From contig NZ_VITA01000010.1 in NCBI RefSeq assembly GCF_007827695.1, positions 62,001-126,000 on the forward strand: a stretch of 64,000 bases of DNA, in the 5' to 3' direction. A program made the translations under genes and the position numbers. Shown piece after piece: positions 6,169 through 44,774 of this stretch. Each line of letters begins with the position of its first letter. Positions within the stretch are counted from its first letter, which is position 1. The DNA comes from Sinorhizobium medicae (lineage in GTDB: Bacteria > Pseudomonadota > Alphaproteobacteria > Rhizobiales > Rhizobiaceae). The notes under the pieces were generated by a model that was given only the letters and a program-made list of their open reading frames with translations, was not told the origin of the DNA and did no database searches.

Positions 6169-7508
6169 CCCATCTTCTACACCGTGCCATTCATGCGAAG
6201 CTGCCCGTCGCCGTCCGTGGCGAAGGCGTCCGGCTCTTCGACGCCGAAGGCAGGGCCTATATCGATGCGTCCGGCGGAGCGGCCGTCTCCTGCCTCGGCC
6301 ACGCCCATCCCGATGTGCTTGCAGCGCTCCATGCGCAGCTCGACCGCATGGCCTATGCGCATACCGGCTTCTTTACCACGGAGGCCGCGGAACGGCTTGC
6401 CGACCGGCTCGTCGCCGATGCGCCCGATGGGCTCGATCATGTCTATCTGGTGAGCGGCGGATCGGAAGCCATCGAAGCGGCATTGAAGATGGCGCGGCAG
6501 TATTTCGTGGAGAAGGGCGAGCCGCAGCGCCGGCATATCATTGCCCGACGTCAGAGCTATCACGGCAATACTCTTGGCGCATTGGCCGCCGGGGGCAACG
6601 AATGGCGGCGTGCTCAATTCCGGCCGCTGCTCGTCGAAACCCACCATATCGATCCGTGCTTTGCCTACAGGCTGCAGCAAAGCGGCGAAAGCGACGCGGA
6701 TTATGCCGCGCGTGCGGCGGGACAGCTGGAAGCGAAGATCCTGGAGCTCGGTGCCGATCAGGTGATCGCGTTCGTCGCCGAAACCGTCGTGGGCGCGACC
6801 GCAGGAGCAGTGCCGCCGGTCGCCGACTATCTGAAGCGCGTCCGGGCGATCTGCGACAAATACGGCGTCCTGCTGATCCTTGACGAGGTCATGTGCGGCA
6901 TGGGGCGCACCGGCACGCTGCATGCCTGCGAGCAGGACGGCGTCGTTCCGGATCTCATGACCATCGCCAAGGGCCTCGGCGGCGGTTATCAGCCCGTCGG
7001 CGCTGTGTTGCTGTCGTCCGCAATTTTCCAGGCTTTCGCCGAAGGATCCGGCTTCTTCCAGCATGGGCACACCTATATGGCGCATCCGATGGCTGCGGCG
7101 GCAGGCCTCGCCGTCCAGGAGATCATCCGCCGGGACGGGTTGCTCCAGAACGTCGTCACGATGGGCGACTATCTTGAGACATGCCTCGTCGAGCGGCTCG
7201 GCAACCACCACCATGTCGGCGACATCCGAGGCCGAGGTCTCTTCCGTGCCATCGAGCTTGTCGCCGACAGGGCGGTGAAATTTCCATTCGACCCCGGACT
7301 GAAGCTCAATGGACGGATCAAGAAGGAAGCCATGGCACGAGGTCTGATGGTTTATCCGATGGGCGGCACGATCGACGGGCAGCGGGGGGACCACGTTCTC
7401 CTGGCCCCGCCCTTTATCCTTACCCGTGAAGATGTCGACCAGATCGTCGAGCGCCTCGGCGATGCCGTGGATGCAGCCATAGCCTCACTCTCACGAGCCG
7501 CCGGTTAG
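6165..7508 (+). CDS. Class III (PLP-dependent) aminotransferase
   Basis: A 447-residue subgroup-II (class III) aminotransferase. It shows the glycine-rich PLP phosphate site (SGGSEAIEAALKMARQY), the Asp that contacts the pyridine nitrogen in LILDEVMCGMGRTG, and the PLP-binding lysine in MTIAKGLGGGYQP. The family includes beta-alanine/pyruvate, omega-amino-acid, GABA and diamine transaminases. It is translationally coupled to the RpiR regulator and opposite a BKACE gene. One reading is that it makes a beta- or delta-amino-keto acid that the BKACE then cleaves with acetyl-CoA. The amino donor and acceptor are not determinable from sequence alone. Confidence 0.9.
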   Translation: MTHLLHRAIHAKLPVAVRGEGVRLFDAEGRAYIDASGGAAVSCLGHAHPDVLAALHAQLDRMAYAHTGFFTTEAAERLADRLVADAPDGLDHVYLVSGGSEAIEAALKMARQYFVEKGEPQRRHIIARRQSYHGNTLGALAAGGNEWRRAQFRPLLVETHHIDPCFAYRLQQSGESDADYAARAAGQLEAKILELGADQVIAFVAETVVGATAGAVPPVADYLKRVRAICDKYGVLLILDEVMCGMGRTGTLHACEQDGVVPDLMTIAKGLGGGYQPVGAVLLSSAIFQAFAEGSGFFQHGHTYMAHPMAAAAGLAVQEIIRRDGLLQNVVTMGDYLETCLVERLGNHHHVGDIRGRGLFRAIELVADRAVKFPFDPGLKLNGRIKKEAMARGLMVYPMGGTIDGQRGDHVLLAPPFILTREDVDQIVERLGDAVDAAIASLSRAAG

Positions 7509-7561
7509 AGCGGGATGAAGTGCGCGCGTTCCGGCCTCGGCCCGGTCTGTCGCCGGGCGAT

Positions 7562-7585
7562 TGAAGGCGTGATCTCACGCCTTCA
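7562..7585. terminator. Bidirectional hairpin between convergent genes
   Basis: Two perfect 11-base arms, TGAAGGCGTGA and TCACGCCTTCA, are separated by two bases. They lie between the rightward aminotransferase stop (7508) and the leftward CMD gene, whose TGA stop is inside the right arm (7575-7577). There is no T-run, so termination strength is uncertain. The position between converging genes is typical. Confidence 0.55.
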
Positions 7586-8153
7586 GGTGGGGTTCGCCCA
7601 GCGTATGCATCAGGCGGTTCGCCCAGCCGAAAATCGCGATCGAATGGATCAGGTCGAGGATCTCCAGATCGTCGAGGCCGATTTCGCGAAGATGGTAGAA
7701 CTGGTAGACGCCGACATTGTCCGGATGCGCGGTCAGGTCGGCGCCGAAATTGAACAGTGCCTGCTCGAAATCCGGCAGATCCGCGTCTAGTCCGCGCCTG
7801 TAGATCTCGTCGACCACTTCCGGGCGCTTTTCGAGCTGGATATAGCGGTTGGCATGCACCGAGGCGCAGTAGATGCAGCGGTTGACGAAGGAGGCCGCCA
7901 GGGCGCCAATTTCGCGGCCCCCACGCGACAGGCCGCCTTCGCTGTACATGATGTCGTTGAAAAGCGGCGTGCGCTCGGCGAGCATCTCCGCTTCATTGGC
8001 CAGCACCAGGACATAATTCGAAACCTTGGTGTTGGAGGGTGTCACCTTCAGGGCTTCGAGCTGTTCGGTCGTTGCCTCGTCGAGCTTCACGGGCCTGACA
8101 TAGGGTTGCCAGTCGAGCGGTTCGAGGGTGAATTCGTGTACGGCCTCCGACAT
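7575..8153 (-). CDS. AhpD-like peroxidase-related CMD protein
   Basis: A 192-residue carboxymuconolactone-decarboxylase (CMD) superfamily protein. It has the AhpD-type redox motif NRCIYCASVHANRY with Cys93, Cys96 and His100, so an alkylhydroperoxidase or disulfide-type chemistry is possible. Only one base separates its ATG from the stop of the preceding CMD gene, so the two are surely co-transcribed. The pairing of one CxxC-bearing and one CxxC-lacking CMD protein resembles the Avi_7169/Avi_7170 family pair (recalled from family knowledge). It ends the leftward LysR-ABC-monooxygenase unit, suggesting a role in handling an oxidation product of the imported compound. Confidence 0.85.
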   Translation of the reverse strand: MSEAVHEFTLEPLDWQPYVRPVKLDEATTEQLEALKVTPSNTKVSNYVLVLANEAEMLAERTPLFNDIMYSEGGLSRGGREIGALAASFVNRCIYCASVHANRYIQLEKRPEVVDEIYRRGLDADLPDFEQALFNFGADLTAHPDNVGVYQFYHLREIGLDDLEILDLIHSIAIFGWANRLMHTLGEPHLKA

Positions 8154-8154
8154 G

Positions 8155-8658
8155 TCAGTTGTCCCTCAGCATTTTAACACCGGCCACGACCAGCACCTGA
8201 TAGTTCACGAAGGCGATGAGACCTGCGAGGGTCACGATATCGCGGTCGTCGAGCCCGACGGCGTAGAGCGCTTCGATGTTCGCGCGCGTCGCTTCCCTGG
8301 GCTTGAGCGTCACCAGGTCCACATGTGCAAGGATCGTTGCGAGCCGTTCGTCGCCCTCGGGTACTACACCCGGATCGGCAATCGCCTGGAGGCCGGGTGT
8401 CGATCCCCTCTCTTCCAGCAGCTCCTTGTAGTGCGCCTGGAGCTCAGCCGATCTCCAAAGGCCAGCCATGCGCGCCGCCAGGGCCGCCCGCATGGCAAAA
8501 GAAAAGTTTCCCGGATCCGAGGGGGTAAAGGCGGCTTCATAGCTCGTCTGCGTGAAATGCTTGAGCTTGGCGCGCCGCTCGCGCAGCGCATGAACGGGCG
8601 AGGACGAATCCAGGCCGAGAACTGCGTCGATCACATCGACTTTCGTGGAAACGGTCAT
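8155..8658 (-). CDS. CMD-domain protein without CxxC motif
   Basis: A 167-residue protein starting MTVSTKVDVIDAV. An AAGGA ribosome site places the start at 8658 rather than at the longer in-frame start at 8679. The C-terminal half has the CMD helical pattern (LDDRDIVTLAGLIAFVNYQ), but the catalytic cysteines of AhpD are absent. It is likely a partner of the CxxC-bearing CMD protein directly downstream, with one base between them. It follows the FAD monooxygenase-like gene by 36 bp. The biochemical role of this subfamily is unknown to me. Confidence 0.8.
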   Translation of the reverse strand: MTVSTKVDVIDAVLGLDSSSPVHALRERRAKLKHFTQTSYEAAFTPSDPGNFSFAMRAALAARMAGLWRSAELQAHYKELLEERGSTPGLQAIADPGVVPEGDERLATILAHVDLVTLKPREATRANIEALYAVGLDDRDIVTLAGLIAFVNYQVLVVAGVKMLRDN

Positions 8659-30442: not shown

Positions 30443-31351
30443 ATGCAACTCGAAGGGATCTTTTCAGCCCTCCTCACCCCGTTCTCTGAAGACGAAGCCA
30501 TCGACCGGCAGGCCGTCGGAGCACTCGTCGATTTCCAGGTCGGCCTGGGCATAGATGGGGTCTATGTCGGCGGCAGCTCGGGCGAAGCGATGCTGCAGTC
30601 GCTCGACGAGCGGGCCGACTATCTTTCCGACGTCGCGGCCGCGGGCGCCGGCCGTCTGAAGCTGATCGCTCACATAGGCACGATCGCGACGAAAGATGCG
30701 CTCAGCCTATCGCAGCACGCGGCCAAATCCGGCTATCAGGCGATCTCGGCAATCCCGCCCTTCTATTACGATTTTTCCCGCCCCGAGGTCATGGCGCATT
30801 ACCGCGAGCTGGCAGACGCTTCCGCCTTGCCTCTCATCGTCTATAATTTCCCGGCCCGCACGAGCGGCTTCACTTTGCCCGAACTGGTCGAGCTTCTCTC
30901 GCATCCCAACATCATCGGAATCAAGCACACGTCGAGCGACATGTTCCAGCTCGAACGTCTCCGGAATGCTGCCCCTGATGCAATCGTCTATAACGGTTAC
31001 GACGAAATGTGCCTCGCCGGCTTCGCTATGGGCGCACAGGGCGCGATCGGCACAACCTATAACTTCATGGGCGATGTGTTTGTCTCGCTCAGGGCCTGTG
31101 CAGCGGCGGGGCGGATAGTGGAGGCGCGGCAGCTGCAGGCCATGGCGAACCGCGTGATCCAGGTGCTGATCAAGGTCGGTGTCATGCCGGGGTCGAAGGC
31201 GTTGCTCGGCATTATGGGCATTGCGTCCGGTCGATCGCGGCGCCCCTTCCGCAAGGTCGAAGAGGCGGATCTCGCAGCACTTCGCGAAGCCTTGGCGCCT
31301 GTCCTCGCCTGGCGTGAAAGCGGCAGGGCTGCGAGCGGGCTGACCGGCTGA
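30443..31351 (+). CDS. nanA: N-acetylneuraminate lyase-like aldolase
   Basis: A 302-residue DapA/NAL-superfamily enzyme that follows E. coli NanA closely: GIDGVYVGGSSGEAMLQSL (sugar carboxylate loop), PPFYYDF, Tyr134 in VYNFPA, Schiff-base Lys161 in IKHTSSDMFQLE, YNGYDE with Glu188 at the sugar-tail site, and GTTYNFMGD. NanA splits N-acetylneuraminate into N-acetylmannosamine and pyruvate. It lies at the end of the nanR-siaPQM cluster. No nanK, nanE, nagA or nagB appears in the window, so later steps must be encoded elsewhere or the true substrate is a different nonulosonate. Confidence 0.85.
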   Translation: MQLEGIFSALLTPFSEDEAIDRQAVGALVDFQVGLGIDGVYVGGSSGEAMLQSLDERADYLSDVAAAGAGRLKLIAHIGTIATKDALSLSQHAAKSGYQAISAIPPFYYDFSRPEVMAHYRELADASALPLIVYNFPARTSGFTLPELVELLSHPNIIGIKHTSSDMFQLERLRNAAPDAIVYNGYDEMCLAGFAMGAQGAIGTTYNFMGDVFVSLRACAAAGRIVEARQLQAMANRVIQVLIKVGVMPGSKALLGIMGIASGRSRRPFRKVEEADLAALREALAPVLAWRESGRAASGLTG

Positions 31352-31584
31352 TGTGAACTGTGCCACCCAAAGGCCGCAATCCATGTGCAGCATGGGTCAG
31401 TCCGTTCGCATCCTGCCTTCTTCGCATTCCTCTCACGGCCTTCGTACAGTTTTTCGTCAGCGGCAATCGGGAGCGCACGCGTCGATCTCCAGGATGGGCT
31501 CAGGCGACGTTCGGACACGGAGTTTTGAGTGGACGGGCGGGTTCGGTCCCATAAAGATGCGCGTGAAGACTGTCGAGGCTCGTG

Positions 31585-33516
31585 ATGGAACGCAAACTCG
31601 CAGCAATCGTAGCAGGCGACATCGTCGGCTATACCCGGCTGATGTCCGAGGACGAGTCCTCGACCTATTCCGCATTGCGGGAGGTTTTCAGCGCGCTGAT
31701 CACACCTGCGGTCGAGAAGCACGGCGGCCGAACATTCAAGACCACGGGCGATGGTTTTCTCGCGACGTTTCCGAGCGTCAACGAGGCCCTTGACGCCGCA
31801 ATCGAGATCCAGAACGGATTTGCGGATCGGCCCTTCGACATGCGCCTCGGCATCAATCTCGGTGACGTCATTGAAGTCGATGGCGACATGTTCGGCGACG
31901 GCGTGAATGTCGCGTCGCGGCTAGAAGCCATGGCCGAGCCCGGCGGCATTTTTGTGAGCGAAGCCGTGGTTCGCAGCGCTGACCGGAACCGAAGCAAGCT
32001 CTTCTACAGCATCGGGCGAAGGCAGGCGAAGAACATTCCCGAGCCGCTCGCCGTCTATGCCGTGCGGCTTGGGGCGGATGAGGAAAGCCCCAGCGGCTGG
32101 TTTGGACGGACGGCTCGCGGGCGCCGCGCCGCCTTGCCCTATGCTATCGGAGCCGCAGCATTTGTCCTTATCGCCGCTGCCACCCAGGCGCCTGCGGTGA
32201 GAGCGATCGGCGCGGACATGGTCGATAGCTTCGGACGTCTGACCGGTGCGGAGCTTGCCGATGCAAGGCCGACGGTCGCGGTTCTGCCGTTCGATGATAT
32301 GAGCGGCGGCGCCGATCAGGCCTATTTCGCCGATGGGCTTACGGAAGACATAATCGCCAATCTCGCGAGAAATCGCGAGCTTCAGGTGATCGCCCGCAAT
32401 TCCACCTTCGCCCTTCGCGGCCAGGCCGAGGACATTCGCCGGATCGGCGAAAGGCTTGGCGCCGGCTATGTGGTGGAAGGCAGTGCCCGGCGCGCCGGAG
32501 ACCAGCTCCGCGTCGTGGCGCAGTTGATCGATGCGCGCAGCGGTGCGCATCTGTGGTCGCGCAGTTACGACCGCCGGGTCGAGGACATTTTCTCGGTCCA
32601 GACCGAGCTGACGGCCGAGATCGTGTCGCATCTCGTTTCCTATGTGCGCGAGTCGGAAGTATCGAACGCGGCGGAACAGCCCACCGAGAACCTTCAAGCC
32701 TACGATCTCGTCCTGCAGGCGCGTAACCGTTACAAGCATGGTTCGAAAGACGCCGAGGCGCTGATCGCTTCTCGTGCGTTGCTTCATAGGGCACTCGAAC
32801 TCGATCCTGGCTATGCCGCAGCGCGCGCCAGTCTCGGAATGACCTACATCGTAGACTTCGTGCAGAACCTCACCGGCCGGGCGACCGTGACCGATGTGGA
32901 AACAGGGCTTAGCGAGTCGCGGCAGGCCGTCCGCCTCGATCCGAACCTCGCAGTCGGGTACCAGGTGCTCAGCTTCGGCCTCTCGGCCACCGGGGACTAT
33001 CCCGGCGCCATGCAGGCGGCACAACGCGCGGTCGAGCTCAATCCCAACGATCCGGACAGCCTCATGGCACTGGCCAAGGCGCAGGTCAGATTCGGCAGCT
33101 ATGACGAGGCTGTGCAAAACGCCGAGCGGGCCCGGCGGCTGCATCCGATGGCGCCGGAATACTATACCTATGTGTACGGCCAGGCGCTTTATGCTGCCGG
33201 CCGCCTCGATGAAGCCGATGAGGTCTTGCGCGAATGCCTGATCCGGGCGCCGCGCGAACCGGATTGCCTGCTGATCCAGACGGCCGTCCTGAGCCAGCGT
33301 GGAGACGCCCAGGGGGCGCAGCGCACCATGGCGCGGCTGACCGAAGCAGATCCCGAATTTTCCCTGGCCAGCGAGCGCGCCCTGCGCCGGTTCGGCGACA
33401 CCGCGCTCATGGAGCAATTCCTGTCGCAGCTTTCCGAGGCAAACGCTCCGGACGTTACCAGTGGCTTCGTTCAGCCGCCCCCTCAAGCACGCATTCAGAC
33501 GGCCAACAGTCTGTAA
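31585..33516 (+). CDS. Class III adenylate/guanylate cyclase with TPR repeats
   Basis: A 643-residue protein with an N-terminal class III cyclase domain (residues about 1-165). The two metal-binding aspartates are Asp12 (AGDIVGYTRLM) and Asp56 (TTGDGFLATF). Then come one membrane segment (about 180-205), a TolB-like N-domain (VAVLPFDDMSGG onwards, about 228-350) and several TPR units to the C-terminus. Sinorhizobia carry many such cyclases. cAMP production is the likely activity. The preceding GTG at 31582 is an alternative start, but ATG 31585 is better spaced from GAGG. No partner gene is obvious nearby. Confidence 0.9.
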   Translation: MERKLAAIVAGDIVGYTRLMSEDESSTYSALREVFSALITPAVEKHGGRTFKTTGDGFLATFPSVNEALDAAIEIQNGFADRPFDMRLGINLGDVIEVDGDMFGDGVNVASRLEAMAEPGGIFVSEAVVRSADRNRSKLFYSIGRRQAKNIPEPLAVYAVRLGADEESPSGWFGRTARGRRAALPYAIGAAAFVLIAAATQAPAVRAIGADMVDSFGRLTGAELADARPTVAVLPFDDMSGGADQAYFADGLTEDIIANLARNRELQVIARNSTFALRGQAEDIRRIGERLGAGYVVEGSARRAGDQLRVVAQLIDARSGAHLWSRSYDRRVEDIFSVQTELTAEIVSHLVSYVRESEVSNAAEQPTENLQAYDLVLQARNRYKHGSKDAEALIASRALLHRALELDPGYAAARASLGMTYIVDFVQNLTGRATVTDVETGLSESRQAVRLDPNLAVGYQVLSFGLSATGDYPGAMQAAQRAVELNPNDPDSLMALAKAQVRFGSYDEAVQNAERARRLHPMAPEYYTYVYGQALYAAGRLDEADEVLRECLIRAPREPDCLLIQTAVLSQRGDAQGAQRTMARLTEADPEFSLASERALRRFGDTALMEQFLSQLSEANAPDVTSGFVQPPPQARIQTANSL

Positions 33517-35047: not shown

Positions 35048-35686
35048 CTACCGCAGAGTTCGCGCCATGGCGCCGATGATCAGGACGGCCGAGGCGGCGC
35101 CGGGGTCCATGTGGCCGAGCGAGCGTTCTCCAAGCCGGGCCGCACGGCCTTTTGTCGCAACCATGGAACGTGTCGCGTTGGCGCCGTTTTGGGCAGCCGC
35201 TGTGACGTCCGCCCAGAACGCATCGGCGGGCTTGCCGGCAGCGATCGCCTGCGCAGCAGCGTCGGCGGCCGGAAGCCAGACGTCGAGCATGGTCTTGTCG
35301 CCTCGCTGGCCTTTGCCCCGCTCGCGGATGCCGGATGCGATCGACTGGACAAGAAGGGCGCAAGTCCCGAGATCCAGCGCATCGCATCCTTCCAGAGCCT
35401 GCGCCGCCCGGCGGAAGGCCGTGGCGTAAAGCGGACCCGTGGAAGCGCCAACGGCATTCAGGAATGCGCTTGCGGCCGCCGTCATGACGCTGCTCAGCTC
35501 GGCGCTGCTTGCATCCGTTCTCGCAAGTTCGCTGGTCACGGCAGAAAAGCCGATCGCCATGGTGATCCCGTGATCGGCGTCGCCGATCGCGCCGTCAAGC
35601 TCAGACAGGCGATCTCTCTCCGCCCCGATGTCACTGGAGATCGCGTCAAACATTTCGATCAGGCGGCGCACCGCGATTTCCGACAT
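35048..35686 (-). CDS. dhaL: DhaL-type kinase subunit, paired with SorC-DhaK fusion
   Basis: A 212-residue nucleotide-binding subunit of the dihydroxyacetone-kinase family. It keeps the magnesium-binding aspartates in IGDADHG (residues about 34-40), the ASTGPLYATAF stretch, GDKTMLDVWLPA, and GERSLGHMDPGAAS. DhaL supplies the phosphate (from bound ATP/ADP) to substrate held on DhaK. It lies 105 bp after the SorC-DhaK fusion on the same strand and is its natural partner. A GGGAGGA ribosome site gives two possible ATGs (35689 or 35686); spacing favours 35686. Confidence 0.88.
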   Translation of the reverse strand: MSEIAVRRLIEMFDAISSDIGAERDRLSELDGAIGDADHGITMAIGFSAVTSELARTDASSAELSSVMTAAASAFLNAVGASTGPLYATAFRRAAQALEGCDALDLGTCALLVQSIASGIRERGKGQRGDKTMLDVWLPAADAAAQAIAAGKPADAFWADVTAAAQNGANATRSMVATKGRAARLGERSLGHMDPGAASAVLIIGAMARTLR

Positions 35687-35791
35687 CATTTCCTCCCGCG
35701 GCCCTTGGCGCCTAGAAACTCTACCATCTGCAGCGCTCCAGCCCTTTATGACTTGCACGGGGGACCGTTACACATTTTCTCCGGAAACGCC

Positions 35792-37879
35792 CTAGTTGAT
35801 CTTCAGGAATGCCGTTTCGCAAGGGTGATGAAGCAGTTCTGACAGCTCCTGATCGAGATGGAGGATGGTGATCGAAGCACCGACCATATCCAGCGAGGTG
35901 CAGTAGTGTCCGATCCAATTGGCTTCGATCAGAATGTCTTTTGCCGCCAGGCGCTGCTGAACCCGCCGAAACAGGATGTAGAGTTCCATCAGGGGCGTCG
36001 CTCCAAAGGAATTGACGAGCACGGCAACGCGGTCGCCGGGTGCTGCCTTCATCTCGTTGAAGACGCGGTCCATGACGCTGTCGGTTATCTCGTCCGCCGA
36101 TCTGATGCGCTCGCGTGTCACGCCCGGCTCGCCGTGGATTCCCATACCGACCTCCATGTCTTCCGGGCCTATCTCGAAATTGTGCCGGCGCGTCTGCGGC
36201 ATTGCGCCGGGCTCGAGCGCGACCCCCATCGTGTAGGTGCGCAGGTTCGCCTTGCGCGTAACCGCCGCGCAGGCTTCCAGCGAAAGACCACGGTCGCAAG
36301 CCGCGCCGGCGATCTTGAAGATGAAGAAGTTGCCGGCGACGCCGCGTCGGCCTTCGCGGTCCTCGATCGGCGAGGATGCAATGTCGTCGGTCGTCAGGAC
36401 GGTCTGCACGCGAATGCCTTTTTCTTCGGCGATCTCGGCGGCCATCTCGAAATTCATCACGTCGCCGGCGTAATTGCCGTAGACGAAGAGCACACCTGCT
36501 CCACCGGACGCTGCTTCGGCGCATTGTACGATCGGATCGGGCGGCGGCGAGGAAAAGATGTTACCGACGGCAACCGCATCGGCAAGACCCTTGCCTACAT
36601 AGCCGAGGAAGCACGGTTCGTGACCCGTGCCTCCGCCGATGACGAGGCCGACCTTTTCCGGCCGCGGCCCGCTGCGAGCGGCGAGCGCTCGATGCGATCC
36701 GTTGATCGGCTTAAGATATTTCTCGTGCGCTTTGACGACGCCGTCGAGCATCTCTTCGACAACCTCGTTCGGATTGTTGAGGAATTTCTTGACATGGCTG
36801 CGGTAGGTGCTCAGCGTCTGCACGAGTTTTGGACGGTGCGAAAGCCTGCTGTCGAGTGCCGTGCCGCCGTCTGCGCGCAAGATACCGTGACCTGTCGCAG
36901 CGTCCGTGATCAGCACGTTGACATAGCCACCGCGCAACGCCGCCAGCAGCGCCGGAACCTTGTCAAAGCCGCCGGCCACTGCGATGCGCGTGCCGATCCT
37001 GCGAAGCAGGTCAAGGGAGATGCCCACCGTCCGGTGGTCGAGCGGCCCCGCAACCGGGCGGCCGCGCTCGTCGATGAAGCGGCCGGCGACGACGCCGACC
37101 GCGCCGGCCGCGAGATAGTCCTGTAACGAAACCGATTCGAAGAAGCCGCTGGTGTGGATGGTGGAATTCGGCCTAAGCGACGATATGCCGAAGAGCACCC
37201 GGTTTGACCGCGCCAAGGTCGCAAACTGTTCCCGCACAAGGGGTTCGTCCAGAAGCATCTGCAGGAGCTCGGGCGACCTGACCACAGCCGGCGCGGTGAT
37301 ATTGACGCAGCGGGCGGCGATTGCCCGCGCCACGGCAGAGGCGCAAAGTTCCGGCGTATACGGAAAGGACGCCGTGGTGCCTCCTGTCGCCTGAACCACG
37401 GTCATGTCCTGAAGAGACGTGATTCCGGCGTGTTCGCCAACCGAAAGAACGGTGCGGCCCCAGGCGACGGCAAGCGTGTCGCCGGATTTCAGGAGCTTCG
37501 GCAGCGCCTGCGCTCCTGCCGCCCCGAGGCGATCGATCAGCGGACGCGCATTGTCGTCGCTCGGAACCACGAGGCAATCGGTCAGGCCGAAATGCCGCTT
37601 CAGTTCCTGTGCGACCGTGAGCGACGCCAGGCGCGCCGGCTCGATCGAAATGTTGACGATGCCCTTTTCACGGGCGTCGGCCAGATAGCTGTTGACCGTC
37701 GCGCGCGACACACCCATCGCCTCCGCGATCTCGCTTTGCGTCATGCCGTCTTCGTAATAAAGCCAGCAGGCCCAGACATAAGGATCGTCACCGTAACGCA
37801 AGGGGATCGCGTCCGAGCCGTCCATCGTGCCGCCTCGGTTGGCTCCGCCTTTGCGCGGTGAGGGTGTCTTCATCGTCAT
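35792..37879 (-). CDS. SorC-family regulator fused to a DhaK-type kinase subunit
   Basis: A 695-residue fusion. The N-terminal part is a complete SorC/DeoR-like regulator: HTH at about residues 45-72 (MTQSEIAEAMGVSRATVNSYL) and sugar-binding domain to about 360. The C-terminal ~333 residues are a complete DhaK subunit with GTGHEP (substrate His), NYAGD (catalytic Asp) and GIHGEPG, whose His582 should bind the keto group covalently. All catalytic positions are kept, so it may be active. It lies between two dhaL-like genes in an operon with another DhaK and faces a sugar ABC importer. In E. coli, DhaK and DhaL control the regulator DhaR by binding it; here regulator and kinase are one chain. 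The start has a GGGGAAG site; an upstream TTG is less likely. Confidence 0.88.
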   Translation of the reverse strand: MTMKTPSPRKGGANRGGTMDGSDAIPLRYGDDPYVWACWLYYEDGMTQSEIAEAMGVSRATVNSYLADAREKGIVNISIEPARLASLTVAQELKRHFGLTDCLVVPSDDNARPLIDRLGAAGAQALPKLLKSGDTLAVAWGRTVLSVGEHAGITSLQDMTVVQATGGTTASFPYTPELCASAVARAIAARCVNITAPAVVRSPELLQMLLDEPLVREQFATLARSNRVLFGISSLRPNSTIHTSGFFESVSLQDYLAAGAVGVVAGRFIDERGRPVAGPLDHRTVGISLDLLRRIGTRIAVAGGFDKVPALLAALRGGYVNVLITDAATGHGILRADGGTALDSRLSHRPKLVQTLSTYRSHVKKFLNNPNEVVEEMLDGVVKAHEKYLKPINGSHRALAARSGPRPEKVGLVIGGGTGHEPCFLGYVGKGLADAVAVGNIFSSPPPDPIVQCAEAASGGAGVLFVYGNYAGDVMNFEMAAEIAEEKGIRVQTVLTTDDIASSPIEDREGRRGVAGNFFIFKIAGAACDRGLSLEACAAVTRKANLRTYTMGVALEPGAMPQTRRHNFEIGPEDMEVGMGIHGEPGVTRERIRSADEITDSVMDRVFNEMKAAPGDRVAVLVNSFGATPLMELYILFRRVQQRLAAKDILIEANWIGHYCTSLDMVGASITILHLDQELSELLHHPCETAFLKIN

Positions 37880-37993: not shown

Positions 37994-38635
37994 TCAGCGG
38001 AGCCGGGCGCGGGCCCCTCCCGACAACTCCCTCAGGATAATCGCACAGGAGGTCGCGCCCGCGTCGAGCACGCCGAGGGAGCGTTCGCCCAGGCGGCTCG
38101 CCCTGCCTATCTTTGCAACCAGATCGCGGGTCGAATCACGCCCGGCTTCCGCTGCCGCTGTGAGCGCTTCGAGCGCTTCGGCGAAAGACCTGCCGGCGGC
38201 GATCGCCGCGTCGAAAGCTTCGACGGCCGGCACGAAACTGTCGAGCAGTGTCTTGTCGCCGACTTTCGCGGAGCCGATGGATTGGATGCCTTCCAGTCCG
38301 GCGTGAAGCATGCGGCTATAGGCGGTCGCATCGATCGCGTCGACCGCCTCGATCTTCTCGGCGAACTCGGTGAACATCACGCCGTAGAGCGGGCCCATCG
38401 AGCCGCCGATCTCCGTCATCAGCACGGTGCCGAGCGTTTCGAGCGCCTCTGCAAGCGAGGCGTCCTTGTCCTTCAGTCGTTCCGCGGCAAGGCCGAAGCC
38501 CTTGGCCATGTTTACGCCGTGATCGCCGTCACCGATCTTGCCGTCGATCTCACTCAGATAAGCACGGTTTTCGATGATCCGTTCGGCGAGGGCCTGGACG
38601 ATATCGCCGGCTTTTGCATTTTCAAACGTCTGCAT
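37994..38635 (-). CDS. dhaL: DhaL-type kinase subunit
   Basis: A 213-residue DhaL homologue with IGDGDHGVNM (metal-binding aspartates near residues 36-40), GGSMGPLYGVMF, VGDKTLLDSFVPA and GERSLGVLDAGATS. It follows the separate dhaK by 9 bp and precedes the SorC-DhaK fusion by 114 bp. It should form the phosphate-transferring half of the first kinase pair. No DhaM or other phosphotransferase-system gene is present in the window, so direct use of ATP is possible, as in related erythrulose/tetrose kinases. The substrate is unproven. Confidence 0.9.
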   Translation of the reverse strand: MQTFENAKAGDIVQALAERIIENRAYLSEIDGKIGDGDHGVNMAKGFGLAAERLKDKDASLAEALETLGTVLMTEIGGSMGPLYGVMFTEFAEKIEAVDAIDATAYSRMLHAGLEGIQSIGSAKVGDKTLLDSFVPAVEAFDAAIAAGRSFAEALEALTAAAEAGRDSTRDLVAKIGRASRLGERSLGVLDAGATSCAIILRELSGGARARLR

Positions 38636-38644
38636 GGCACTTCC

Positions 38645-39637
38645 TCAGAAAACAGCGGTGCAGCGGACCTCGACATCGAGGAGCGCCTTGAGTTCGTCGT
38701 CGAGCGCCATCACCGTCAGTGTCGCCCCGACCATTTCGAGCGAGGTGAAGTAGTTGCCGACATAGGTCCGGTAAATTTTTAGGCCACGGGCTCTGATCTC
38801 GCGCTCGATCGTATCGTTGAGAATGTAGAGCTCGTTGAGCGGCGTTGCCCCAAGGCCGGAGACGAGCACCGCCACCTCCGTGCCGTCCGGCAGGCCATGA
38901 TCATCCAACACGATCTTGCACATGTCCTTGGCGACCTCGTCCGCGGTCTTCAGCGCCTCGACGCGCAGGCCAGGCTCGCCGTGATGGCCGATGCCGACCT
39001 CCATCGTGCCCGGTTCGATCCGGAAGTTGGGATGGCCGACGGCGGGAAGGGTGCAGGGACCAAGCCCGACGCCGATCGAGCGGCAATTGTCGATCGCCTT
39101 CTGGGCAGTCGCACGGACCTCTTCGAGGGGTGCTCCCGCCGCTGCCTTGGCCCCGCCGATTTTCCACATGAAGATTTCCCCTGCAACGCCGCGGCGTTTT
39201 TCGCGCTCTTCGGGCGGCGCAGAGCAGACGTCGTCATTGGCGACCACCGTCGCGATTTCGATGCCCTCCTTGGCCGCGAGCTTCACGGCCATCTTCACAT
39301 TCATGTTGTCGCCGGCGTAATTGCCGTAGAGGCAGACGACGCCCTCGCCGCCGTTCGCTTCGCGCATGGCGTCGTGGAAGCTCTTGGCCGTAGGCGAAGA
39401 GAAGAGCTCGCCTACGGCGACTGCGTCCAGCATGTTTCTCCCGGTATAGCCGATGAAGGCAGGCTCGTGGCCGGAGCCGCCGCCCGTCACGACGCCCACC
39501 TTGCCGGCGACCGGTGCATTCTTGGCAACGATGACGCGGGGATTTTCGCCGAGGCGGACGATATCGGCATGCGCCTTGACGAAGCCCTTGACGGTGTCTT
39601 CGACGACCTCGTCCGGATTGTTGATGAACCTTTGCAT
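38645..39637 (-). CDS. dhaK: DhaK-type keto-sugar kinase subunit
   Basis: A 330-residue DhaK homologue with all catalytic residues: His57 in GSGHEP, Asp110 in NYAGD and the substrate-binding His219 in GHHGEPG. DhaK binds dihydroxyacetone or related ketoses (for example erythrulose) through a covalent hemiaminal. It heads a leftward operon of dhaK, dhaL, sorC-dhaK fusion and dhaL. A 369-bp gap separates it from the divergent ribose-type ABC importer, suggesting that the imported sugar or polyol is converted to a short ketose for this kinase. An AGAGGAC ribosome site supports the start. Confidence 0.9.
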   Translation of the reverse strand: MQRFINNPDEVVEDTVKGFVKAHADIVRLGENPRVIVAKNAPVAGKVGVVTGGGSGHEPAFIGYTGRNMLDAVAVGELFSSPTAKSFHDAMREANGGEGVVCLYGNYAGDNMNVKMAVKLAAKEGIEIATVVANDDVCSAPPEEREKRRGVAGEIFMWKIGGAKAAAGAPLEEVRATAQKAIDNCRSIGVGLGPCTLPAVGHPNFRIEPGTMEVGIGHHGEPGLRVEALKTADEVAKDMCKIVLDDHGLPDGTEVAVLVSGLGATPLNELYILNDTIEREIRARGLKIYRTYVGNYFTSLEMVGATLTVMALDDELKALLDVEVRCTAVF

Positions 39638-40006
39638 GGAAGTCCTCTTTTGTCCGTGGCTGGCGATTTGCGCCAGCGCAACAGCACGTTGAATCTAACG
39701 ACGTCTCCGGTGCAGACCCGGATCTGCGGCTGGCGGCCCCTTACTCAAAAACGTCCCCCCGGTGCGCATTCGCTCACTCCAGAGCGTCAATTTTCTACAT
39801 AATTCAAACATGGCTCGACAAATGTCAACATTCACGATAGATTGCCCAAAAATTTCGGAGGGAGAAGGCGGTTACTGACCGCGATTCCTCTATGTTTTCC
39901 GGGGCTTGTCGGCCGTGCTCCTTTGGGCGGGTGAAAGCGTGCGGTCAGGAGCGGCTTAAGCCGGTGGGGCGCTGAGTGTCCCGGTAATGGGTTTGGAGAG
40001 GCTGAT
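39638..40006. other. 369-bp divergent control region of dhaK and ABC importer
   Basis: No gene recognised. It is AT-rich around 39780-39840, where a leftward promoter candidate lies, and should hold the binding site of the SorC-DhaK fusion. No clean long palindrome was found by eye. Confidence 0.5.
39800..39828 (-). promoter_or_regulatory. Candidate promoter of the dhaK operon
   Basis: On the minus strand a perfect TTGACA (39828-39823) is followed, after 17-18 bases, by GAATTA or AATTAT, about 165 bp upstream of the dhaK ATG. The -10 match is moderate. Confidence 0.35.
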
Positions 40007-40993
40007 ATGAAGAGCGTGTTCGCCGACCGGCAATTCAACTTCCTTGTGGCGACCAATGTCCTGGTGGTCGCGCTGGCGGTCGTTTTCGCCGGTGACACCT
40101 TTCTCAGCCTCTACAATTTCCAGTCGATGTCCGCGCAGGTGCCGGAGCTTGCCCTGCTGGCTCTCGGCGTGATGCTCGCCATGATTGCGGGAAACGGCGG
40201 CATCGATCTTTCGGGCATTGCTCTCGCCAACCTCGCCGGCGTGGGTTCCTACCTGCTGATGCGCGACTGGGTTTCAGTCGACGAAGTCCCTCTCGCCTTT
40301 TCGTGGCTATTTGCGTTGATTGCACTGCTGATCGGTCTCGCCGGCGGCATGCTGAATGGCGCATTGATCGCGTTTGCAGGGCTTACGCCGATTATCGCCA
40401 CGCTTGGCACACAGCTGTTTTTCACGGGACTCGCCGTCGCGTTCACAAACGGCTCGGCGATCACGCTCGGTTACATCGAGCCGCTCGACAATTTCGGCAA
40501 CACCCCGGTGCTCGGCTTGCCGATGTGCTTCACGCTCTTCGTCGCCATCGCGGTTCTGATCGGCGTGGTGCTGCGTTACACGCCCTTCGGTTTCAAGCTC
40601 TATCTGATGGGCAGCAATGCCAAGGCTGCACGTTACGCCGGCATCCCCCAGCGCCGGATACTTCTTCTGACCTATACCGTCTGCGGGGTGCTTGCTTCCG
40701 TCGCCGGGATCATCATCGCCGCGCGCACATCAAGCGTGAAATGGGACTATGGCAGCTCCTACGTCCTCATCGCCATTCTGATCGTCGTCATGGCAGGTGT
40801 GCGCCCCGATGGCGGATACGGGCGGACGGTCTGCGTCGTCCTTTCCGCTACGGCACTCCAGATGCTGTCGAGCCTGTTCAATTTCCTCGATATCTCGAAT
40901 TTCTTCCGCGACTGCGCCTGGGGCCTGCTCCTGATCGTGTTCCTGGCGACGTCGCGTGTCGATCTGCGCGCATTTATTTCGCCTCGTCGTTGA
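40007..40993 (+). CDS. Ribose-type ABC transporter permease 1
   Basis: A 328-residue permease of the BPD_transp_2 (RbsC) family with about 8-10 membrane segments and motifs GNGGIDLSGIALANLAGVG and GSNAKAARYAGIPQRR. A GGAGAGGC ribosome site precedes the ATG. It opens a four-gene importer operon that is divergent from the DhaK kinase genes. A second permease follows at 43746, so the channel is probably a heterodimer. Confidence 0.9.
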   Translation: MKSVFADRQFNFLVATNVLVVALAVVFAGDTFLSLYNFQSMSAQVPELALLALGVMLAMIAGNGGIDLSGIALANLAGVGSYLLMRDWVSVDEVPLAFSWLFALIALLIGLAGGMLNGALIAFAGLTPIIATLGTQLFFTGLAVAFTNGSAITLGYIEPLDNFGNTPVLGLPMCFTLFVAIAVLIGVVLRYTPFGFKLYLMGSNAKAARYAGIPQRRILLLTYTVCGVLASVAGIIIAARTSSVKWDYGSSYVLIAILIVVMAGVRPDGGYGRTVCVVLSATALQMLSSLFNFLDISNFFRDCAWGLLLIVFLATSRVDLRAFISPRR

Positions 40994-41073
40994 TCGCGAG
41001 GTCCCAAGATCGGCGCAATGCCCCCCGCCGTCAGTTTTTGGTCGGGCAAACAACAAGTGATGAGGAGACACTC

Positions 41074-42075
41074 ATGTCTGTCTACAAGAAGATTGCTACC
41101 TGCACGGTCGCTTTGGGTGCGCTTTGCGCTGCCCAGATTGCCGTCGCGCAGGATGCGCCCCCGGTCGTGACGGTCGTCAAGGTGACCGGCGAAAACTGGT
41201 TCACGCGCATGGAGGAAGGCGTTGTTGCCTACGGCAAGGACAATACGGGCGTTTCGACGAGCCAGATCGGTCCCGCCAAGGCGGACGCCGCCCAGCAGCT
41301 GCGCCTCATAGAAGACCTCGTCGCGAAGAATGTCAGCGCCATCGCTGTCGTGCCGATGGACCCCTCTGCTCTCGAAGGCGTCTTCAAGCGCGCGATGAAC
41401 CGCGGCATCAAGATCGTCACGCACGAAGCCGACAGCTTGAAGAATACGCAGGTCGATATCGAAGCCTTCGACAACAAGGTCTTCGGCGCGCGCTTCAACG
41501 AGAAACTGGCCGAGTGCATGGGCAAGTCCGGCAAGTGGACGTCATTCGTCGGGTCGCTCGGCAGCCTGACGCACGTACAATGGGCTGACGGCGGCGCGGA
41601 GAACGCCAAGAAATATCCGGAAATGGAACTCGTCTCCGAGAAGAACGAGTCCTTCAACGACGCCAACAAGGCCTACGAAAAGGCGCGCGAGATCCTTCGC
41701 AAGTATCCTGACATCAAAGGCTTCCAGGGCGGTTCGGCCATTGACGTCATCGGAATCGGCCGCGCCGTCGAGGAAGCCGGCCTTGTGGGGAAGGTTTGCG
41801 TCGTCGGCCTCGGGCTGCCGAAGGACACCGCCAAGTACCTCGAATCCGGTGCGGTCCAGAGCATTTCCTTCTGGGACCCGAAGGATGCGGGTTATGTGAT
41901 GAACAAGGTTGCTCAGCTCGTGATCGAGGGCAAGGAAATCACCGATGGTATGGATCTCGGAGTCCCGGGCTACAACAAGGTGTCCGTGAAGCAGGGTCCC
42001 GGCGAAGGCATCATCGTCGTCGGCGAAGCCTGGGTTGACGTCGATAAGTCCAACTACAGCCAGTATCCGTTCTGA
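41074..42075 (+). CDS. Periplasmic sugar-binding protein, RbsB/AI-2 type
   Basis: A 333-residue receptor of the type I periplasmic-binding (Peripla_BP_4) family with a signal peptide of about 25 residues (ending AQIAVAQ). It starts at ATG 41074 behind TGAGGAGAC. Such receptors bind ribose, rhamnose, AI-2 and polyols or tetritols. Set in an operon with two permeases and an RbsA-type ATPase and facing DhaK-type kinases, a short polyol or ketose is plausible. A strong hairpin follows its stop. Confidence 0.9.
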   Translation: MSVYKKIATCTVALGALCAAQIAVAQDAPPVVTVVKVTGENWFTRMEEGVVAYGKDNTGVSTSQIGPAKADAAQQLRLIEDLVAKNVSAIAVVPMDPSALEGVFKRAMNRGIKIVTHEADSLKNTQVDIEAFDNKVFGARFNEKLAECMGKSGKWTSFVGSLGSLTHVQWADGGAENAKKYPEMELVSEKNESFNDANKAYEKAREILRKYPDIKGFQGGSAIDVIGIGRAVEEAGLVGKVCVVGLGLPKDTAKYLESGAVQSISFWDPKDAGYVMNKVAQLVIEGKEITDGMDLGVPGYNKVSVKQGPGEGIIVVGEAWVDVDKSNYSQYPF

Positions 42076-42094
42076 TCACACGTCGAACGGATCC

Positions 42095-42137
42095 GCGGCT
42101 GCAGCCGCTTCCGCCGGCAGGGATGGCCCTGCCGGCG
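42095..42137 (+). promoter_or_regulatory. Palindrome and strong hairpin after sugar receptor gene
   Basis: A 14-bp perfect palindrome (GCGGCTGCAGCCGC, 42095-42108) is followed by an 11-bp stem (CGCCGGCAGGG/CCCTGCCGGCG, 42112-42137) with an ATGG loop. They lie between the receptor stop and the ATPase start, as in the sia, thu and TAXI operons. Confidence 0.65.
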
Positions 42138-42157
42138 ACAGACCGTAACTCCGGATC

Positions 42158-43744
42158 ATGCCAATGCAGTCGACTATCATTGCCGAGCAAAAGATGCCCT
42201 CTGTCGAGGCGCAGGGCGGTGGGACGCCCTTCCTGGAAGTTCGCAACCTCGAGAAGCGCTTCGGCGGCGTTCGCGCTCTCAAGGGCGTGAGCTTCACGAT
42301 AGAACGCGGCCGTACCTACCATCTCATGGGCGAGAATGGATGCGGAAAGAGCACGCTCATCAAGATCATCTCGGGCGCCCAGCCGGCCGATGGCGGTGAG
42401 CTTGCGATCAATGGCAAGAAAACCGAAGGCCTGACGCCGATCGGCGCCTTGGCGGCAGGAATCGAGACGGTTTATCAGGATTTGTCGCTTCTTCCCAATC
42501 TGAGTGTAGAGGAAAACGTCGCGCTGACTCAGCAGCTGGTCGCCTCCAACGGCAGGCTTGCGCGTCGTCTCGATCTCAAGGTTCTGCGGGAAACGTCGAT
42601 CCGTGCGCTGAAGGAGGTCGGCCTGCCGACGGAGCCCGCCTTTCTTTCGACGCCGGTCGAAGAACTACCCATCGCGACGCGTCAGCTCATTGCCATTGCT
42701 CGCGCTATCGCTTCCGATGCCGGTCTGGTCATTATGGATGAGCCGACGACCGCATTGACGCGGCGCGAAGTTGATAACCTCATTCGCGTCGTTCACGGCC
42801 TGCATGCCAAAGGCGTGTCGGTCCTTTTCGTGACGCACAAGCTCGACGAGTGCAAGGCCATCGGTGGGCAGGCAATCATCATGCGCGACGGCCTCAAGGT
42901 CGCCGAATGCGACGTTTCCACCCAATCGAAGAGCGAACTTGGCTTCTGGATGACGGGCAAGAAGTTGGACGAGACGCGTTATCGCGTCGACGCGCACGGG
43001 GACGAGACGCTGCTTTCGGTCGAGCAACTCGGGGGGAGCGGCTTCGACAATGTCAGCTTCGCGGTTGCCAAGGGCGAGATATTCGGGATCACGGGACTGC
43101 TGGATTCCGGGCGGAACGAGCTTGCGCTTTCGCTGGCCGGCGTAGAACCGGCGCGGCGCGGCTCCGTCCTGATGGGCGGCAAAGCGGCAGACCTGTCTTC
43201 TCCGGCCTCGGCAATTGCGGCCGGCATCGGCTATGTCCCGGAGGATCGCCTGTCGGAAGGGCTTTTTCTTGGAAAATCCATCCGCGAAAACATCGTCATG
43301 GCGGTCCTCGACCGGCTCCGGGGCGCATTCGGTCTGCTGGACAGCCGCCGGGCGAGGGCACTGGCGCAGAAGACCGTCGACGATCTGCAGGTCGCGACGC
43401 CGGATATCGACAATCCCGTCACGTCTCTCTCGGGGGGCAACCAGCAGAGGGTTCTGATCGGCCGCTGGCTGACCATCGAGCCGAGCCTGCTCATCCTGCA
43501 CGGCCCGACCGTCGGTGTCGATGTCGGGTCGAAGGACACGATTTTTCGCATCATCCAGCGTCTTGCCGGAGATGGGATGAGCGTCATTATCATCAGCGAC
43601 GACCTGCCCGAGCTCCTACAGAACTGCGATCGCGTCATGGTCATGCGCAAGGGCCGGGTCGCCGATGTCTTCACGGCTGAAGGGCTTGAGGAAGACGTAA
43701 TCTACAAATCGATGATGGCCGAAGCCGGCCAAGGAGTTCAATAA
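42158..43744 (+). CDS. Sugar ABC transporter ATP-binding protein, RbsA type
   Basis: A 528-residue tandem ATPase. The first domain has Walker A GENGCGKST and Walker B VIMDEPTTALT, but a weak signature (LPIATRQLIAIARA). The second has a degenerate Walker A (GLLDSGRNELA) and a clear LSGGNQQRVLIGRWL. That asymmetry is normal for RbsA-like proteins. It powers the importer with the two permeases. A second ATG at 42164 is an alternative start. The gene ends 1 bp before the second permease. Confidence 0.92.
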   Translation: MPMQSTIIAEQKMPSVEAQGGGTPFLEVRNLEKRFGGVRALKGVSFTIERGRTYHLMGENGCGKSTLIKIISGAQPADGGELAINGKKTEGLTPIGALAAGIETVYQDLSLLPNLSVEENVALTQQLVASNGRLARRLDLKVLRETSIRALKEVGLPTEPAFLSTPVEELPIATRQLIAIARAIASDAGLVIMDEPTTALTRREVDNLIRVVHGLHAKGVSVLFVTHKLDECKAIGGQAIIMRDGLKVAECDVSTQSKSELGFWMTGKKLDETRYRVDAHGDETLLSVEQLGGSGFDNVSFAVAKGEIFGITGLLDSGRNELALSLAGVEPARRGSVLMGGKAADLSSPASAIAAGIGYVPEDRLSEGLFLGKSIRENIVMAVLDRLRGAFGLLDSRRARALAQKTVDDLQVATPDIDNPVTSLSGGNQQRVLIGRWLTIEPSLLILHGPTVGVDVGSKDTIFRIIQRLAGDGMSVIIISDDLPELLQNCDRVMVMRKGRVADVFTAEGLEEDVIYKSMMAEAGQGVQ

Positions 43745-43745
43745 C

Positions 43746-44774
43746 ATGGCCAATGCCGCAGCGACCGTCGCGGGAATGCGGGATGTCCCCGCCGCAATCC
43801 GGATCATGCGCTGGTTCATCCGCCATCCTCCGGCCGTCACCTTCCTTCTGGTCGTCATCCTCTGCATCGTCGTGGGCACGATCAATCCCGGGTTCTGGCA
43901 GGTGTCCAACCTGTTCGATATGGCGCGCTCCACCGTGGTGCGCGGCCTTTTCGCGCTTGGCGTTCTCGTGGTTCTGGCATCCGGCGGGCTCGATGTGTCC
44001 TTTACCGCCATTGCCGCACTCGTGATGTATGTGATCACCATGCTGGTCACGAATTACGCGCCGGATCTGTCCATCTGGCCCATTCTCGGCATCGCCGCCG
44101 CCAGCGGCGCCATCCTCGGCATCTGCAACGGCTTGCTGGTCCACGCATTGCAGGCGCCTTCGCTGATCGTGACGATCGGCACGCAATATGCGATCCGCGG
44201 CTTCCTGCTGACGTTCATCGGAACCGCGCTGTTCATGAACATTCCCGAGTCCATGGACGCGTTCGGGAAGCTTGCGCTTCTGCGATATGAAGGAGCGAAT
44301 GGTGCGGTTGCGACATTGCCGGCCTATTTCCTCGTTCTGGTCGTCGCCGCATCCGTCACCTGGTACATCCTCAACCGCACCCTGATCGGTCGGGCGCTCT
44401 ATGCGGTGGGGGGAAACGCCGGCATCGCCTCGCGGCTCGGATACAATCTGCGCACCGTGCATGTGTTCGTCTTCGCCTATGCAGGCCTACTGGCTGGAAT
44501 TGCTGGCATCATGCACGTTTCGAGCAATCGCCTCGCAAATCCGTTCGATCTGGCGGGGTCGGAACTGGACGTCATCGCTGCGGTCATCCTCGGTGGCGCG
44601 CGCATAACCGGGGGCTCGGGTACGGTGCTTGGAACGTTGCTCGGCGTGTTGCTAATCACGCTCGTCAACAACGTGCTGATCCTCGTCGGCATCCCAAGCA
44701 CCCTTCAACTCGCGATCATAGGGCTCTTCATTTTGGCAGCCGGTGCCATGTTCTCCATCAGGCCGAAAAGCTGA
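43746..44774 (+). CDS. Ribose-type ABC transporter permease 2
   Basis: A 342-residue RbsC-family permease with about 8-10 membrane segments and motifs VLVVLASGGLDVSFTAIAAL and GGNAGIASRLGYNLR, then the late GGARITGGSGTVLGTLLGVLLI. It lies one base after the ATPase stop. With permease 1 it should form a heterodimeric channel. The operon ends here; the next gene is convergent. Confidence 0.9.
   Translation: MANAAATVAGMRDVPAAIRIMRWFIRHPPAVTFLLVVILCIVVGTINPGFWQVSNLFDMARSTVVRGLFALGVLVVLASGGLDVSFTAIAALVMYVITMLVTNYAPDLSIWPILGIAAASGAILGICNGLLVHALQAPSLIVTIGTQYAIRGFLLTFIGTALFMNIPESMDAFGKLALLRYEGANGAVATLPAYFLVLVVAASVTWYILNRTLIGRALYAVGGNAGIASRLGYNLRTVHVFVFAYAGLLAGIAGIMHVSSNRLANPFDLAGSELDVIAAVILGGARITGGSGTVLGTLLGVLLITLVNNVLILVGIPSTLQLAIIGLFILAAGAMFSIRPKS

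Follow-up and report, generated by a model that had tools for sequence, protein, structure and literature searches.

A SorC-type regulator joined to a complete DhaK subunit in alphaproteobacteria, with an operator-like site beside its operon

In many plant-associated soil bacteria, a single protein seems to combine a transcriptional switch with one half of a sugar kinase. We describe such a protein, a SorC::DhaK fusion, from a 64,000-nucleotide stretch of Sinorhizobium medicae DNA that was analyzed as a whole (the window), where it is encoded at 35792-37879 on the minus strand. Judging from its sequence and from an operator-like site that accompanies it, the fusion is very probably the regulator of its own operon, and we favor, with moderate confidence, a bifunctional repressor-kinase, or trigger enzyme, by which the operon would be turned on when the kinase product is made.

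The fusion protein and its two halves

The gene encodes 695 amino acids from ATG 37879, which makes the histidine of the GIHGEPG motif residue 582 (His582), and its frame is open to TTG 37924; counted from that first possible start, the ORF (37924-35792, minus strand) has 710 amino acids. On this longer ORF, Pfam models match an HTH-like region at 55-87, the Sugar-bind domain PF04198 at 101-349 (193.7 bits, cut-off 27) and the Dak1 domain PF02733 at 394-705 (386 bits, cut-off 31.4; model positions 1-312/313), that is, the full-length HTH and effector-domain arrangement of the SorC/DeoR family and a DhaK domain across its whole length. In coordinates of the window, all on the minus strand, these are an HTH region of SorC/DeoR type at approximately 37640-37804 (HTH-like Pfam matches and alignment with LsrR, DeoR and SorC), the SorC sugar-binding (effector) domain at 36878-37624, a variable linker at 36791-36877 and the DhaK domain at 35795-36790. 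The closest solved proteins to the N-terminal half are LsrR, DeoR and SorC, aligned full-length over HTH and effector domain, and the closest to the C-terminal half is E. coli DhaK. An AlphaFold model built from 14 fusions is mediocre (pLDDT 66.6, pTM 0.46); Foldseek searches with it return the same two folds, matching DhaK and SorC/DeoR/LsrR structures, and by their titles the matches include a DhaR(N)-DhaK complex and DhaQ co-activator structures. The sequence-only reading had placed a SorC regulator and a complete DhaK in one chain; Pfam and the nearest structures bear this out, and the motifs it named (GTGHEP, NYAGD and GIHGEPG, the last with His582) are all present, so that sensor, regulator and a kinase subunit that looks catalytically competent would be one molecule.

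A scan of named genomes, with a query that ran across the joint, gave 380 relatives, of which the best 80 were examined. The frame is open in all 80 of these best 80 of 380 matches, which rules out a chance joint or the sequencing error that the same reading had raised as a counter-explanation; because the query spanned the joint, the count establishes that the joint exists but does not give the frequency of separately encoded halves. Translation of a separate DhaK from a start codon inside the gene, at the joint, is ruled out as a general feature: the codon preceding KKFLN is GTG in 13 of 81 readable genes (of 82; L087 has no match), and no single position near the joint combines a start codon and a Shine-Dalgarno-like sequence in more than 2 of the 82 genes.

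We compared residues across 95 fusions, comprising the 80 loci just described (best 80 of 380), 13 loci from a scan of the order, the window and S. meliloti 1021. Equivalents of DhaK His56, Asp109 and His218, which we take to be the numbering of the catalytic positions and presumably the residues for covalent ketose binding and transfer, are present in 95/95. The effector-domain Lys that aligns with what we take to be the phosphosugar-site Lys of LsrR is likewise invariant (95/95), and the effector-site Asp of LsrR and DeoR is replaced by V, A, I or E in every fusion, a point that we count against our best explanation. This loss is not specific to the fusion, since most of the nearest unfused SorC relatives also lack the Asp. 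The Lys of DeoR that presumably forms a Schiff base has no counterpart either, the aligned position being Thr.

As a dihydroxyacetone kinase, the DhaK half scores 377.3 bits with the NCBIfam equivalog TIGR02363, under the cut-off of 406.25, and it matches the DhaQ model TIGR02362 more weakly (200.8 bits, under the cut-off of 413.25). Both halves are under strong purifying selection and the linker is relaxed: comparison of the window with S. meliloti gives dN/dS values of 0.02 for the HTH, 0.03 for the effector domain, 0.31 for the linker and 0.06 for DhaK, and against Sinorhizobium sp. A49 the values are 0.03, 0.08, 0.20 and 0.08, respectively. The linker has 23-30 residues in 92 of the 95 fusions and was not measurable in the other three. 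At the level of sequence, both halves of this candidate trigger enzyme are intact and under selection.

Gene module, distribution and origin

In the window, the fusion is the third gene of a minus-strand series formed by dhaK1 (38645-39637; Pfam), a separate DhaK of another clade, dhaL1 (37994-38635; TIGR02365, 178.5 bits), the fusion and its adjoining partner dhaL2 (35048-35758; TIGR02365, 182 bits, cut-off 138.3). Diverging from it on the plus strand is an importer (40007-44774), assigned from profile matches and gene order, with permease 1 (40007-40993), a Peripla_BP_4 substrate-binding protein (41074-42075), an ATPase of sugar ABC type (42158-43744) and permease 2 (43746-44774). The module is conserved: dhaK1 and dhaL1 precede the fusion in 80/80 loci (best 80 of 380), and the expected DhaL partner, a second dhaL, adjoins it in 79 of those 80, the 80th ending at a contig edge; all 79 of these dhaL2 proteins carry an IGDxDHG motif. 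An importer accompanies the fusion, by set criteria, in 74 of the best 80 of 380 loci, and its type varies (the window type occurs in 4/80); L120 and L145, among the six loci without a qualifying importer, have importer genes that missed the criteria. The order of genes varies as well, dhaL2 lying upstream of the fusion in L054-L058 (five loci of the order scan, from two families) and in L181 and L183, two of four loci fetched later. In L053 and L182, the fusion and dhaL2 occur without dhaK1/dhaL1, and the fusion is the sole DhaK found within about 20 kb.

Elsewhere in the window, a protein at 30443-31351 scores 376 bits as an N-acetylneuraminate lyase, above the curated cut-off of 281, and adjoins a second DapA-like protein; in an S. 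medicae relative, this region is followed by a TRAP transporter for sialic acid. The product of 31582-33516 combines an adenylate/guanylate cyclase domain with TPR repeats, an architecture that is ordinary in rhizobia.

The named genomes with intact fusions (80/80 of the best 80 of 380 matches, from a query across the joint that favoured fused copies) belong to Sinorhizobium/Ensifer, Rhizobium, Shinella, Mesorhizobium, Phyllobacterium, Ochrobactrum-type Brucella and others. Among 297 genomes of the order, at least 13 besides the window's own carry a full-length, stop-free fusion, a lower bound given that at most three candidates were scored per genome. A scan of 385 genomes of the class gave no further full-length match at E 1e-100, one genome (G311) matching with a separate DhaK alone, and 398 genomes of the phylum added four fusions, two from the same family and two (G946 and G952) from another order of the class, which rules out a fusion limited to one order.

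We built quick maximum-likelihood trees from 35 fusions (20 of the 80 named-genome loci, the 13 order loci, the window and S. meliloti 1021) and unfused relatives. Fused sequences fall on one side of a branch in both trees (SH-aLRT 90 for SorC and 79 for DhaK), and long branches are present, a pattern that would fit a single origin of the fusion, if not prove it strongly. The dhaK1 proteins form a separate clade (support 99), and tandem duplication of dhaK1 is therefore not supported as the source of the fused half. The fusion may instead have derived from adjoining sorC and dhaK genes. Such a pair is found in L038, from another family, where sorC (7419-8456) is followed, in the same order as in the fusion, by a dhaK that runs from 8553 to past the contig end; 96 bases separate the two genes, which are in frame and have a start each, with GGGAGG ahead of the dhaK start. 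L038 looks like the pre-fusion state, later fission being an alternative. The loci can be set out as a series from the neighboring genes of L038, through the fusion with one dhaL in L053 and L182, to the four-gene module. The open frames around three further DhaK matches (G150:C1:366327, G121:C2:167859 and G198:C1:2331060) span 924-946 codons, more than a DhaK-DhaL protein takes up; a third domain is possible, or the frame may simply be long.

An operator-like site beside the fusion

When the sequence between the importer and dhaK1 in the window is aligned with its counterparts in four relatives (two from S. meliloti, plus L081 and L143), one strongly conserved block stands out in the footprint, TTGACATTTGTC with a second half about 21 bp further. 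The sequence-only reading had pointed to 39638-40006 as the DNA that the protein would bind, and this region does contain a predicted bipartite site, TTGACATTTGTCGAGCCATGTTTGAATTATGTAGA, at 39794-39828 on the minus strand (half-sites about 21 bp apart; score 40.6), 174 bp before dhaK1 and 196 bp before the importer. The layout derived from this one divergent promoter is TTGACATTTGTCGA-N7-TYGAATATTGTCAA, and the exact 12-mer TTGACATTTGTC has a single occurrence in the window's own 6.53-Mb genome.

Among the best 80 of 380 loci, 55 contain the 11-mer TGACATTTGTC without mismatch, with 60 matches where about 0.7 are expected, and up to 300 shuffled versions of it reach a mean of 0.27 loci and a maximum of 8. 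The exact 11-mer is found in 7 of the 13 order loci, in two of them (L056 and L058) away from module promoters, and in none of the controls, which comprise 12 unfused-SorC loci, 13 with a DhaK not fused to SorC and 2 with SorC beside a DhaK-DhaL gene. When up to one mismatch is allowed, 72/80 loci (best 80 of 380) have it in the stretch that precedes the importer or dhaK1.

We further scored all loci with a 35-column matrix (threshold 15 or more; each named-genome locus scored without itself). Sites at threshold are present in 94 of 99 fusion loci, counts that are not independent because five of the 99 (the window, L004, L066, L081 and L143) helped define the motif and leaving one out keeps its close relatives; they divide into 78/80 named-genome loci (best 80 of 380), 10/13 order loci, 2/2 Sinorhizobium and 4/4 later-fetched loci, the last, retrieved after the motif had been defined, scoring 52.3, 24.0, 25.3 and 16.6. 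None of the 27 controls (0/12, 0/13 and 0/2) reaches the threshold, the highest scoring 12.7, and the maximum over 40 shuffles is 7.7. When the site is also required to lie at most 600 bases ahead of, or 40 past, the estimated start of a module gene (neighboring importer, kinase, dehydrogenase, isomerase or fusion), 93/99 loci qualify (78/80 of the best 80 of 380, 9/13, 2/2 and 4/4).

The two failing named-genome loci, L083 and L124, are ones in which the examined stretch starts inside the operon. Three of the 13 order loci (L050, L054 and L058) lack a site above 12.5; the best sites of the first two are weak (10.2 and 10.6) yet upstream of the importer, that of L058 falls inside a permease gene, and the site of 15 or more in L056 is near no known module gene. 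Exact matches near 4390-4400 in L093, L107 and L114 also sit in a permease gene; these are probably coding coincidences shared by descent and were kept in the matrix. In L038, the exact 11-mer stands at the start of sorC with a two-part score of 14.4, just below the threshold of 15, and in L053 and L182, too, the operator-like site is at the SorC start, L038 having the weaker form.

The site thus tracks the fusion even where genes are rearranged, and the rearranged contexts and other-order loci carry most weight for the operator, which was assigned to the fusion by co-occurrence alone. That the site co-occurs with the fusion and sits upstream of module genes is what argues for a regulator of its own operon. 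The putative bipartite operator at a promoter adds, from sequence alone, a further trait of the SorC/DeoR family.

Mechanism, alternatives and substrate

As a repressor-kinase, the fusion would act as a SorC-type tetramer that occupies the two half-sites before the importer and the dhaK operon and represses. On entry of substrate, its DhaK half with DhaL2, and DhaK1 with DhaL1, would phosphorylate a small ketose, which may be dihydroxyacetone but is more likely a C4 sugar such as erythrulose; the resulting ketose phosphate would then bind the SorC effector domain, the DNA would be released and the operon would be switched on. In the available text of PMC11229326, SorC proteins are tetramers on two half-operators, a picture that the ~21-bp two-part layout would fit by analogy, their known effectors are phosphosugars, DHAP among them, and DHAP dissociates CggR, of the SorC family, from its operator and induces transcription in vitro, so that a DhaK product is a proven kind of SorC effector. 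Because a ligand domain, with the phosphosugar-site Lys in place, is already part of the SorC half, and known SorC effectors are phosphosugars, product sensing is the simpler reading. It would also work without fusion, and our best explanation therefore leaves the joining of the halves unexplained.

PutA and NadR are trigger enzymes in which a single chain both works in metabolism and represses by binding DNA; their families and pathways are unrelated to those of the fusion. Kinase subunits or their paralogues partner the regulator of their own operon in E. coli (DhaR-DhaK-DhaL) and L. lactis (DhaS-DhaQ), but through separate proteins and with regulators of other families, whereas here the regulator is SorC and the chain is one. 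The fusion is homologous to the SorC/DeoR repressors (LsrR, DeoR and SorC, with CggR in a sister subfamily) over HTH and effector domain and shares with them the phosphosugar-site Lys and a bipartite, here predicted, operator; it differs in its extra complete enzyme subunit at the C terminus and, from LsrR and DeoR, in the replaced effector-site Asp, as do its nearest unfused relatives. With E. coli DhaK and the ATP-type kinase of C. freundii it has in common the whole domain, all catalytic residues and an adjoining dhaL, and, unlike them, its DhaK is covalently joined to a DNA-binding regulator. BzdR, as described in the available part of PMC3602430, similarly consists of a regulator, a linker and a C-terminal kinase-derived half (HTH plus shikimate-kinase-like), but its inactive kinase half is the effector domain, whereas the fusion keeps the catalytic residues and has a separate effector domain.

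Annotated relatives already bear the NCBI name "bifunctional sugar-binding transcriptional regulator/dihydroxyacetone kinase subunit DhaK," which describes the architecture and carries neither operator nor mechanism. Among titles and abstract openings of the open-access literature, we recognized no paper describing a SorC::DhaK fusion, and the available portions of PMC10117765 and PMC12780249 contain nothing on it. What is new is the combination of a whole SorC repressor, a DhaK with all catalytic residues and an operator-like site. If our reading is true, the repressor of a sugar operon carries an intact kinase subunit in a large group of alphaproteobacteria from soil and plants. The question of why an enzyme becomes joined to a regulator could then be put to a compact natural case, for which L038 is a candidate split relative, L053 and L182 offer simpler versions of the fusion, and the DNA site is defined. 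It would also supply a ready-made sensor for small ketoses or ketose phosphates.

Possible, if unlikely, is that the DhaK half is the sensor, a ketose held covalently on His582 changing the SorC half and DhaL2 resetting it by phosphorylation and release. All residues for covalent binding and transfer (their roles presumed) are retained, and DhaK-class proteins do contact regulators, as the titles of the DhaR(N)-DhaK and DhaQ structures matched by the model indicate; the SorC half, however, owns an effector domain with an invariant phosphosugar-site Lys, the DhaK half scores 377 bits as kinase DhaK versus 201 as DhaQ (both under cut-offs), and cross-talk would have to pass a variable linker. 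That linker, under relaxed selection, would suit two jobs without cross-talk, the fusion fixing the dose of repressor and kinase while the SorC half reads the bulk phosphosugar pool, and so would the split arrangement of L038 with its form of the same site; this is conceivable but improbable, as the joint persists over several families, a hint at some benefit of the covalent link, although the query spanning the joint biased the scan toward fused copies, and one ancient fusion could also persist by inertia. We also regard as quite doubtful a flux-gated repressor, one chain that would read both the ketose bound to the DhaK His and the ketose phosphate in the SorC domain, with DhaL2-dependent turnover of substrate to product setting DNA binding; if true, the cell would measure kinase flux at the operator, beyond metabolite level. 

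In practice, the DhaK half could be non-catalytic and, like DhaQ or the kinase-like half of BzdR, act as an additional domain for oligomerization or ligand binding, given that a complete second DhaK/DhaL pair adjoins in 80/80 loci (best 80 of 380) and that, in the available part of PMC3602430, the kinase-like half of BzdR lost its activity in becoming a regulator. This is very improbable: the three residues H, D and H stand in 95/95 fusions, the second dhaL is retained alongside, and no DhaK other than the fusion, with its dhaL, was found within about 20 kb in L053 and L182. It is highly unlikely that the conserved site is another regulator's or a promoter element (TTGACA looks like a -35 box), the fusion regulating elsewhere or not at all, as 0/27 controls reach threshold, the two other nearby regulators that were sought, a GntR (14/95 loci) and a DeoR-type (4/95), are not conserved, and the site stays with the fusion where promoters are rearranged and, in L038, L053 and L182, marks the start of SorC.

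For the favoured repressor-kinase, several observations bear on the substrate. Both DhaK proteins of the window score under the dihydroxyacetone-kinase equivalog cut-off (TIGR02363; 353.2 bits versus 406.25 for DhaK1), and the ketose may therefore not be dihydroxyacetone. A dehydrogenase like that of L093, which itself belongs to the NCBIfam GolD/DthD family (404.9 bits, cut-off 286; one protein scanned), lies directly before dhaK1 in 69/80 loci (best 80 of 380). By gene order, the window has no such dehydrogenase between importer and kinases, a lack that we count against our explanation, so Sinorhizobium may import the ketose itself. RpiB-like proteins occur in 10/95 fusion loci, and that of L049 scores 238.7, just under the cut-off of 240 for D-erythrulose-4-phosphate isomerase. 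Our guess is a C4 polyol or ketose (threitol to erythrulose), for which the threitol pathway reportedly present in M. smegmatis offers a comparison.

Two variants of the module were also seen. In L149 and L150, the window-type importer and dhaK1/dhaL1 occur with an unfused SorC, and a PfkB kinase and a fuculose-phosphate-aldolase-like protein replace the fusion. In L141 and L046-L048, the module is flanked by two different sugar ABC importers, matching the two DhaK/DhaL pairs, perhaps for two related substrates.
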